From positions 62,001 through 126,000 of the forward strand of contig JAISHF010000002.1 of NCBI GenBank assembly GCA_031262695.1: a stretch of 64,000 nucleotides of DNA, in the 5' to 3' direction. This DNA comes from Candidatus Nomurabacteria bacterium. GTDB lineage: Bacteria > Patescibacteriota > Saccharimonadia > Saccharimonadales > Saccharimonadaceae. The position numbers were made by a program, and so were the translations under genes. Below, in pieces: positions 53,637 through 56,064 of this stretch. The first letter of the stretch is position 1. Each line of letters starts with the position of its first letter. Below the pieces are notes generated by a model. It did no database searches and was not told the origin of the DNA. It worked only from the letters and a program-made list of their open reading frames with translations.

Positions 53637-54506
53637 TTAGGCTCGCGCGGCGAAGCGGATCTTGGCAGATCGCGCCCGTGGATTATTTGCTAATTCTTGA
53701 ACACCAGCGGTTAGGAACTTTTTGTTCGTAATCAACTTACTTTCTAGGCCTTTGTTTGCTTCGTCAGTAAGCCAAGTTTTAACAATGCGGTCTTCTAGAC
53801 TATGGAACGAGATAATGCAGAGTCGCCCGCCCGGATTTAATAAATCTGGCAGCAGCGGTAGCATACGCTCCAAAAGACCGAGTTCGTCGTTCACCTCAAT
53901 GCGGAGGGCCTGAAAAAATTGGGTGGCAGGATGGTGGCGACTATAAGGCGAGTGTTTTTTAATCAAATCGGCGAGTTCTTGAGTGGTGCTAAAAGGCCGC
54001 GCGTGGGTAATTTCCCGTGCGATTTTGATGGCCATACCACTCCGAACTTCACCATATTTGACAAAAATGTTCGCTAAATCTCGTTCGCTATATGTATTGA
54101 CGACTGTTTTGGCCGTCAAAGTTTGCGTTTGGTCCATTCGCATGTCCAAATCGCCCTCTCGCATAAACGAAAATCCGCGTTCGCCTCTGTCTAACTGTGG
54201 TGATGAAACTCCTAAATCGGCCAGAATTAAGTCAAAACGTCGCTTAGTTTGAGCGAGTTCCCTTGCCGCCGCCAAAAAATCCGCGTGCATTAGGGTAGCA
54301 CCTTGGGCCTTGATATCATTAAGACTATCAAGCGCCATCTGGTCACGGTCCACTAATACGGACTTTTTGTAAGCCTTGGTTGCCTGCAAAATTGCCCGTG
54401 CGTGGCCGCCAAACCCAGCCGTCAAGTCTAATAGACTCTCGCCGTCCTTTGGTTGCAACACATTGAGCACTTCTGCTAGCATTACTGGTTGATGAAGTTG
54501 TTCCAT
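53637..54506 (-). CDS. rsmH: 16S rRNA (cytosine-1402-N4)-methyltransferase
   Basis: SAM-dependent methylase of 16S rRNA C1402 (also called MraW). Motif I reads LLDLTAGFGGHARAIL, and the catalytic region includes DLGVSSPQLDRGERGFSF. IISFHSLEDRIVK is the C-terminal hallmark. It has 289 aa. TAAAAT ends exactly six bases before ATG 54506. mraZ, which usually precedes it, is absent; the upstream region holds a structured stretch instead. Confidence 0.95.
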   Translation of the reverse strand: MEQLHQPVMLAEVLNVLQPKDGESLLDLTAGFGGHARAILQATKAYKKSVLVDRDQMALDSLNDIKAQGATLMHADFLAAARELAQTKRRFDLILADLGVSSPQLDRGERGFSFMREGDLDMRMDQTQTLTAKTVVNTYSERDLANIFVKYGEVRSGMAIKIAREITHARPFSTTQELADLIKKHSPYSRHHPATQFFQALRIEVNDELGLLERMLPLLPDLLNPGGRLCIISFHSLEDRIVKTWLTDEANKGLESKLITNKKFLTAGVQELANNPRARSAKIRFAARA

Positions 54507-54522
54507 TTTTTTATTTTATCAC

Positions 54523-54771
54523 AAAGTCTAGACATCTGATAACCAAGCGTTTTTGTTTTATGTTTGTTTAATAACGCCGTCGTTATGCTTTCACTGACCG
54601 TAGCCAATGATTCACGAAAGTTGAGAGACTTATATAAAACGGCGCGAAAGGGTGGGAGGTTTACAACTTTTCGGTTGTAAATGTGTAAAGTGCGTACGCT
54701 ATATTTAATCGAGGTAGCGCGGTCGTGTTTTTCAGGACCTCGTCGCTTTTGCTACCAGATGTCTAGACTTT
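54523..54771 (-). ncRNA. Candidate structured RNA upstream of rsmH
   Basis: A 16-bp perfect inverted repeat (AAAGTCTAGACATCTG at 54523-54538, its complement at 54756-54771) encloses 217 bases with no convincing frame. Inside are GGTAGC/GCTACC (54713-54756), TTTACAAC/GTTGTAAA (54660-54681) and ATAACG/CGTTAT (54571-54586) hairpins. A minus-strand promoter lies upstream at 54814-54842. It is not recognised as RNase P, tmRNA, SRP or 6S RNA. Alternatively the GTCTAGAC palindromes in both arms are protein-binding sites. Confidence 0.45.
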
Positions 54772-54813
54772 GGATTTGTTAAGGTTTTTGTTTGTTTTGG
54801 TCTGTCTAACCCT

Positions 54814-54842
54814 ATTTTACAATGCTTTTTCGCACATTGCAA
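54814..54842 (-). promoter_or_regulatory. Promoter reading into the structured region before rsmH
   Basis: TTGCAA, 17 bases and TAAAAT on the minus strand. Transcription would start near 54807, about 35 bases before the inverted-repeat RNA candidate. Confidence 0.5.
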
Positions 54843-54874: not shown

Positions 54875-54971
54875 AGTTTTCCACAGGTTCCAGATTTGGC
54901 AAGGTGTAAAAGCCCTGTGGAAAACTCTCCCCTCCTCTGTTGGCTCGTGTTTTTGGCAAGTTTTCCACTAT
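54875..54971. promoter_or_regulatory. Three DnaA-box-like sites
   Basis: TTTTCCACA at 54877-54885, its complement TGTGGAAAA at 54916-54924 (part of a 13-bp inverted repeat AGTTTTCCACAGG), and TTTTCCACT at 54961-54969. The DnaA consensus is TTATCCACA. This is the AT-rich half of the 590-bp gap between rsmH and the 55096 gene; the remaining 54972-55095 holds CCGAACAAAAACCCGAAC. Confidence 0.4.
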
Positions 54972-55095: not shown

Positions 55096-56064
55096 TTACT
55101 CCGACTTGGCGTCGGCGTCGTCGAGGAGCTTTTTGCCTTTGACTTCGTAGCGTTTGCCGGTAGTGGCGGAGATGAAGTAGTTTTCGTCTACTAGGTTTAC
55201 GAGCATAGATAAGTCCTTATCATCGGCGATGATGATTTTGCCGTTTTCGGAGAGCATCAGCGGCAGCTGCATTTCGTCCGCGAATTCCATTAACTTATCT
55301 TGACTGACGGCGGCGAGGTCGGCGTCGTCTAGTTTTTTCACTAGCGCCTTCTTTTCTTTGAGCATTTCAGTTAAATCTAGGCCCTCAGCGAGCGTCAAAT
55401 CATAGGCGTTAGATAATTCTTCGGCCTTGGCTGGGGCGAGAGCGGTCATAGCGACATCAAACTGGAATAGTCGCTCAAACTTGCCGCGATTTAGCGCCAC
55501 AAGTTGCCAGCCGTTGGTGCCGTCATCTACCACCAAAACTTCGTTGCCCTCGGGCACACGGATGCCGACCGAGGCCGAAAACGGCTCTAATTTTTCGCCA
55601 CGGAGTTCCCACGAGCCTTTGTCGGAAAGTGCCTGCGAGCCAGATAACCCCTTGATGACATAGCAATTCTTGTTGTTGCCGCCGTCGCCATAGTTAAACT
55701 TGGCGGCGACACCCTTGATGCGGCGAAAATCGTGGTCTTCGCCCGAAAAATAGATAATGTCGGCATATTCTTTCTCAATCAAGTTAATTAGGGTTGCGGC
55801 ACGATTAACCTCGTCCAGATTCATTACGAGCACGGCTTTATCGTTGGTTTGGTTTTCTAGCCGCTGCACCGAGAGGTCGTTCTCTATTCCTTTGTTGACA
55901 AAGGCCACCAAATCCTCCAAAAAGAGCCGCCGGATGCCGGCCTCTAACTCGTTGGCGAGCCGCACCTTGTAGGGTGTATAATTTTTGTTAAAAAAGAAAA
56001 GTTCCATGGTGGCGTTTTTCGCCCATTCCCCTGCCCTGTTCGCCCAGTTAAATAAATCAAACAT
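55096..56064 (-). CDS. Hypothetical protein, 322 aa
   Basis: I do not recognise the family with confidence. It is soluble, acidic at the C-terminus and has no signal peptide. The middle includes a strand-rich core (VRVP-like IRVPEGNEVLVVDDG, RGKFERLFQFDVAM), and the last 40 residues are charged. It has its own upstream promoter box near 56125 with a short frame (56090-56116) before it. It is co-directional with greA but separated by 84 bases. Function unknown. Confidence 0.6.
   Translation of the reverse strand: MFDLFNWANRAGEWAKNATMELFFFNKNYTPYKVRLANELEAGIRRLFLEDLVAFVNKGIENDLSVQRLENQTNDKAVLVMNLDEVNRAATLINLIEKEYADIIYFSGEDHDFRRIKGVAAKFNYGDGGNNKNCYVIKGLSGSQALSDKGSWELRGEKLEPFSASVGIRVPEGNEVLVVDDGTNGWQLVALNRGKFERLFQFDVAMTALAPAKAEELSNAYDLTLAEGLDLTEMLKEKKALVKKLDDADLAAVSQDKLMEFADEMQLPLMLSENGKIIIADDKDLSMLVNLVDENYFISATTGKRYEVKGKKLLDDADAKSE

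Follow-up and report, generated by a model that had tools for sequence, protein, structure and literature searches.

We consider it probable that positions 54523-54771 of the window, by which we mean the whole 64,000-nucleotide stretch of Saccharimonadaceae DNA analysed here, hold the gene of a structured non-coding RNA of about 250 nt, belonging to an undescribed family of the Saccharimonadia that would mature in the manner of rRNA and act in trans through a conserved partner. The original prediction, made from this locus alone, was of a candidate RNA closed by a helix upstream of rsmH, and that prediction is now supported by covariation and by a family-wide search. It had proposed a covariance analysis and a search for the block elsewhere in Saccharibacteria. 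Both have been run, the closing helix covaries strongly and the family extends across the class, so that a lack of conservation, which was named as a refuting outcome, is excluded on the conservation side. The scale of the prediction was too small, in that it missed the class-wide family and the viral copies of an RNA that is read on the rsmH strand.

Structure and distribution of the RNA

The 249-bp block (54523-54771) lies on the minus strand together with rsmH, which encodes the 16S rRNA m4C methyltransferase (53637-54506, minus strand; PF01795, E 6.9e-88). The coordinates given for the block and its inverted repeat hold exactly: AAAGTCTAGACATCTG (54756-54771, minus strand) is matched by CAGATGTCTAGACTTT (54523-54538) in a perfect 16-bp repeat, nested in 25-nt arms that are 88% complementary. 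The ORF list contains no sizeable ORF in the block, and both its non-coding nature and its perfect terminal inverted repeat were thus predicted correctly. The minus strand of the 249 nt folds with a minimum free energy of -79.0 kcal/mol against -46.6 +/- 4.6 kcal/mol for shuffles (z = -7.1); the plus strand folds more weakly in a shuffle comparison (z = -3.9). The palindrome GTCTAGAC is present in each arm as claimed, but it is not conserved in the family and is irrelevant to it; it is a by-product of the inverted repeat in the window's genus.

The closing helix, P1, has its 5' arm at 54751-54774 and its 3' arm at 54522-54548 (minus strand), as defined by the inverted repeat, the fold and covariation. 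On alignment A2, which comprises 47 distinct sequences, 94.5% of P1 pairs are standard, 20 of the 21 pairs have changed on both sides, double-changed cells number 161 as against 45.4 +/- 7.8 in shuffles and 5 to 37 in slid controls, and the covariation score is 0.557 versus 0.294; two positions stay mismatched in most sequences. When the arms were anchored by sequence alone, a mean of 19.9 of 23 positions paired, compared with 17.1 when arms were dealt anew between genomes. G-U pairs are numerous, which shows that folding takes place on the rsmH strand. RNAalifold returned zero pairs on alignment A1 because the variable hairpins are poorly aligned there; for this reason our search model, R1, is a sequence-only model, built from 40 of the family loci, and helices were tested through the anchored arms and A2. 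Greedy duplex prediction over the long arms gave uninformative helices.

Just inside P1, most loci have a predicted H-type pseudoknot (54696-54742 in the window, minus strand), in which CGAGG (54738-54742) pairs with CCTCG (54710-54714) to form P2 and GCGCTA (54715-54720) pairs with TAGCGT (54696-54701) to form P3; other loci use CGGUA/UACCG, CCGGA/UCCGG or CGAUC/GAUCG. A pseudoknot score of at least 22 was reached by 84% of 130 loci, as opposed to 25% of shuffles. The pseudoknot is followed by an unpaired strand, GCACCUU...ACACCUCCCAAAAAACUCCACCUCACAC, by a stem opening with AUAAGUCUCUC and by an A-rich strand. In the window (all minus strand) the conserved single-stranded core consists of ACCTCCCACCC (54650-54660; ACACCTCCCAAAAAACTCCACCTCACAC in relatives) and of ATAAGTCTCTC (54623-54633), the most invariant piece according to the alignments, while the conserved G-poor, A-rich strand is AAACAAACATAAAACAAAAACGC (54547-54569). 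The fold also predicts a stem-loop domain, P4/P5 (CGCCGT...ACGGCG, 54575-54644), which contains an inner hairpin, and fold and alignment together give an extra hairpin, TTTACAACCGAAAAGTTGTAAA, in the window's genus (54660-54681). Of the three internal hairpins originally described, the presence of internal folds stands, but these are a pseudoknot with hairpins rather than three simple hairpins. The window's genus has kept ACCUCCCA and AUAAGUCUCUC and has lost CUCCACCUCACAC, and the core is degenerate in families f20 and f35; the core is therefore not universal. Separately, loci from several genera (L026, L034, L061, L075 and L016) have an extra hairpin within the CUCACAC segment of the core, where it is tolerated between CUCCACCUCAC and AUAAGUCUCUC.

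By DNA search, two of three congeners have the block at 80% identity, and another genus has a short match that likewise lies upstream of rsmH; on that basis, the DNA upstream of rsmH was sampled across the family. An AAGUCUC motif occurs there in 110/110 readable loci, a further locus (L112) having been left out because it is masked with N. In a search of the order with R1 the RNA was found in 137 of 149 genomes (105 genera sampled), and all but one of these matches (136/137) precede rsmH on its own strand at a distance of 47-365 bp. Recognisable versions were seen by eye in three genomes of other orders of the class (L151, L152 and L154). Across the phylum, R1 gave only weak and unconvincing matches outside the class Saccharimonadia, and none of six other phylum members inspected by eye has such an RNA, a mraZ-like gene standing directly before rsmH in four of the six. 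Among the matches listed in a core-pattern scan of named GTDB genomes, rsmH follows the core in all 113 checkable non-viral loci, and the labels are Saccharibacteria/Saccharimonadia, Chaera renei, or unplaced bacterium or Patescibacteria MAGs. The RNA is found once per genome in nearly every Saccharibacteria genome examined, and a plasmid search for it gave zero matches.

boxA, promoters and gene context

Directly 5' of P1 lies a 13-nt element, AAACCTTAACAAA in the window (54775-54787, minus strand), that is conserved as GY[AT]CNTTAACAA across 130 loci and yields the position-specific model G, Y, [AT], C, N, T, T, A, A, C, A, A. The consensus of boxA is GYTCTTTAANA (PMC5725501). The family conserves positions 1, 2, 4, 6, 7, 8, 9 and 11 of that consensus and is relaxed at positions 3 and 5, so that the element fits the consensus; the window's own copy departs also at positions 1 and 2. 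The best site for the model in the organism's own 16S leader, ATACATTGACAAT, is the boxA of that leader, and a direct reading of the rRNA operon shows it overlapping the processing stem of 16S, GACAATTTAGTTGTGCAATATCATC / GATGATATGCACAACTAAATTGTTGA, in its 5' arm. A long covarying helix adjoining boxA, as expected of an rRNA-type leader-trailer helix, is found in the new RNA. RNase III cuts the leader-trailer helix in E. coli, where 30S subunits cannot form without that helix (PMC10250234). The likeness to a pre-rRNA leader lies in a boxA directly 5' of a long closing helix; in contrast to pre-rRNA, the new RNA encloses about 250 nt that are not rRNA, and that it is processed alike is an inference.

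A consensus scan predicts a promoter for the RNA, TTGCAA-17-TAAAAT, at 54814-54842 (minus strand), and direct reading of two congeners (L003 and L004) finds TTGCAA-17-TAGAAT and TTGCAT-17-TAGACT at the same place with equal spacing. A second predicted promoter, TTATCA-18-TAAAAT at 54513-54542 (minus strand), would serve a leaderless rsmH, and its -35 falls within the 3' arm of P1. The scan gave four sites where 0.8 were expected; to the extent that a consensus scan can decide, the RNA's own upstream promoter and the separate leaderless promoter of rsmH are both as originally proposed. Gene starts in the window fall into two classes, with an SD-like sequence at about 22 of 50 and a -10-like box shortly 5' of the start at 19 of 50; the proximity of such boxes to start codons suggests that many mRNAs in the window may be leaderless. 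Three DnaA-box-like sites lie upstream of the RNA promoter (window 54875-54969), namely TTTTCCACA at 54877 and, in inverted orientation, at 54916, and TTTTCCACT at 54961; two of them make up an inverted repeat of 13 bp, which can be seen in the two congeners as well.

The RNA usually lies between mraZ and rsmH and does not replace mraZ. Of 66 loci inspected, 50 have a MraZ-like gene before the RNA (47 recognised by motif, three more by eye), and in four of these PF02381 was confirmed. The view that the block stands in place of mraZ is therefore true locally, the window's genus lacking mraZ directly upstream of the RNA, where a KwaB-like gene and greA lie in the window, but it does not hold for relatives, which have both mraZ and the RNA. 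The protein encoded at 55096-56064 of the window, where relatives carry mraZ, has a C-terminal KwaB-like domain (PF16162). In family f35 the order is mraZ, boxA, a diverged RNA and then a gene for a TRAM-domain m5U methyltransferase (L453, 274-2495), with rsmH on another contig; in a second f35 genome that was read, no such RNA lies upstream of rsmH.

Viral copies and possible functions

Core-pattern scans of IMG/VR and a search of GenBank phages identified ten viral contigs with an intergenic core and no rsmH nearby (L285, L286, L287, L288, L291, L293, L296, L300, L301 and L418, the last being MW202692.1, a complete phage in GenBank); L297 is a near-copy of L296. R1 matches all ten with E-values from 2e-14 to 2e-7. 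An intrinsic terminator follows the core by 31-80 nt in eight of the ten, and two contigs have strong promoters (TTGACA-18-TATCAT and TTGACC-16-TATAAT) with a start 35-53 nt before the core. Endolysin genes lie close to the core in L286, L287, L288 and L418, and by eye in L301, and the terminase of L286 shares 37% identity with a terminase from a Saccharimonadales genome. We regard the small hypothetical protein annotated over the core stretch of MW202692.1 as a mis-call. The viral units carry the open strand and flanking hairpins without boxA or the long P1, and for that reason speak for the core only. Viral carriage is, on the evidence of these sequences, of a stand-alone, cut-down form of the RNA; the host of most contigs has not been shown. 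The viral pattern GCACCTT-N-CTCCACCTCA returned mostly chance matches, and eight further candidates (L289, L290, L292, L294, L295, L298, L299 and L302) were rejected as coincidences, mostly in GC-rich coding sequence. In L291 (1400-5000), which has the promoter, core and terminator unit, the encoded XRE-like regulator and ATPase have an actinobacterial look when read by eye; this contig may be chimeric, or else a phage or element belonging to the host of the Saccharibacterium.

Occurrence detached from the neighbour gene, as expected of a trans-acting RNA, is seen in the viral copies and at the f35 locus, and from these arrangements we argue that the core works away from rsmH. The function looks to be in trans rather than purely in cis, although we have no transcript, processing or partner data. 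Against action in trans, a cis element would be expected to be linked to rsmH in just this near-universal way. Antisense pairing was tested only for one perfect 11-mer and for rRNA duplexes, and within that scope the genomes yielded no conserved target for pairing: a perfect complement to CUCCACCUCAC has seven non-self matches in 41 genomes versus eight for the reversed control, and duplexes of the core with 16S and part of 23S rRNA were mostly within the shuffle range. One of the 15 duplex tests, that of the A-rich strand with 16S, beat 100/100 shuffles, but this strand's pairing is conserved in only part of the family. As no complementary target was found, a protein partner is likelier than antisense pairing. 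Mimicry of 16S rRNA was considered and set aside: ACACACCUCCC matches 16S ACACACCGCCC, in the region targeted by RsmH, at 10 of 11 letters, but shuffled cores reach 10/11 in 6 of 20 cases, and the match is absent in L015, L021 and the window's own genus, so that it is only a lead.

Our model starts from what comparison of the loci shows. The RNA is read in the direction of rsmH, starts right after the boxA-like element, has a long covarying closing helix and a pseudoknot, and presents a nearly invariant, G-poor, C/A-rich strand; viruses carry a minimal version of this strand as a stand-alone unit. We infer that boxA, by binding NusB/NusE, brings a Nus-type complex to a transcript that is long and untranslated, as in pre-rRNA, and that an RNase III-type enzyme cuts the closing helix to free the RNA from the rsmH mRNA, for which the family is also predicted to have a separate promoter. 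With less certainty, the invariant strand would be offered in trans to a partner that is conserved and is probably a protein rather than an antisense RNA, perhaps one that takes part in 30S maturation or in the initiation of translation, and viral copies may compete for this partner or borrow it. The link to these two processes is no more than a guess from the context, namely boxA, the processing-type helix, the neighbouring rsmH and an ACCUCC like that of the 16S 3' end. The full proposal, in which a near-universal RNA of a ribonucleoprotein matures like rRNA, its strand engages a ribosome-assembly or translation factor and the phage miniatures are decoys or hijackers, is offered tentatively and may well not hold in all its parts.

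It is also possible, though we doubt it, that the RNA is a cis leader of rsmH and the dcw genes, in which boxA and the RNA control read-through or translation and sense Nus factors, RsmH or ribosome assembly. The constant position before rsmH, both in the order and among the named loci, would be explained, and in several families no promoter is visible by eye between the RNA and rsmH. There is also a precedent, as boxA regulates suhB in E. coli (PMC5725501), again outside rRNA operons and upstream of a ribosome-biogenesis gene; however, that leader is short and has no 250-nt structured RNA. The stand-alone viral copies, the f35 loci with mraZ and the RNA but without rsmH, and the predicted promoter that rsmH has for itself in the window all speak against a cis leader.

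Rather less plausible is an anti-SD-like RNA, whose exposed CACCUCC, CUCC and CCUUCC would pair with the SD of leadered mRNAs and so favour leaderless ones, the viral copies acting on the host. ACCUCC is common to the RNA and the 16S 3' end, the C-rich strand is kept in viral copies, and, given the two classes of gene start in the window, an RNA that discriminates leadered from leaderless mRNAs is conceivable and is kept as a rival. Yet pairing with the SD would not need the strict conservation of CUCCACCUCACAC-AUAAGUCUCUC, CCUCCC is absent from some members (L015 and L021), and no experiment lies behind this reading. We think it very unlikely that the locus is a Rho-attenuator controlling read-through into rsmH, with the C-rich, G-poor strand as a rut site and boxA as its antagonist; the composition of the strand and the boxA upstream would fit, but hardly a letter of this strand varies from family to family, unlike in rut sites, which are degenerate, and viruses carry the strand upstream of intrinsic terminators.

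Known RNAs and significance

That the RNA is a highly divergent form of 6S, RNase P, SRP RNA, tmRNA or the mraW motif is hard to credit. At the gathering score, neither the window nor any of 20 homologous and viral loci has a match in Rfam 15, and for the window only two chance-like matches appear at E-values up to 10. The models for RNase P, SRP RNA and tmRNA do not match this locus or its homologues, and that for 6S RNA (RF00013) matches neither these nor anything in the whole genome; the apparent absence of 6S RNA from the genome is one point in favour of divergence. The other is the mraW motif, which is located upstream of mraW (= rsmH), the gene for which it is named and the neighbour gene of the new RNA, so that the two agree in position. 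Its covariance model gave no gathering-score match in the loci scanned, and none at E up to 10 for the window; the new RNA, which we take to be larger, belongs to another phylum and has viral copies. By position the nearest known RNA is nonetheless this motif (RF01746), described from Actinomycetales (PMC2864571). There is next to no chance that the locus is a DNA-level repressor site or recombination scar and not an RNA, as the perfect inverted repeat with GTCTAGAC in each arm might suggest, since the covariation of P1 with its abundant G-U pairs already contradicts it, as do the pseudoknot and the conserved unpaired strands.

We found no description of the RNA in the open literature, subscription papers and preprints being outside the scope of that search, and we rate it as a new family whose maturation signals resemble known ones. 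GOLLD and ROOL are large structured RNAs common to bacteria and phages. The new RNA too occurs in both, but it has no Rfam match and its viral copies are reduced, not enlarged.

The ultrasmall Saccharibacteria live as parasites on other bacteria and have very few genes, and to our knowledge little is known of their RNA biology. A single-copy RNA in almost all genomes of the class, with a strand kept nearly letter for letter, is likely to be important to them, and the viral copies are an independent pointer to a cellular partner of that strand. The RNA could serve as a class-specific marker, and it gives a concrete, testable entry into translation or ribosome assembly in Saccharibacteria.
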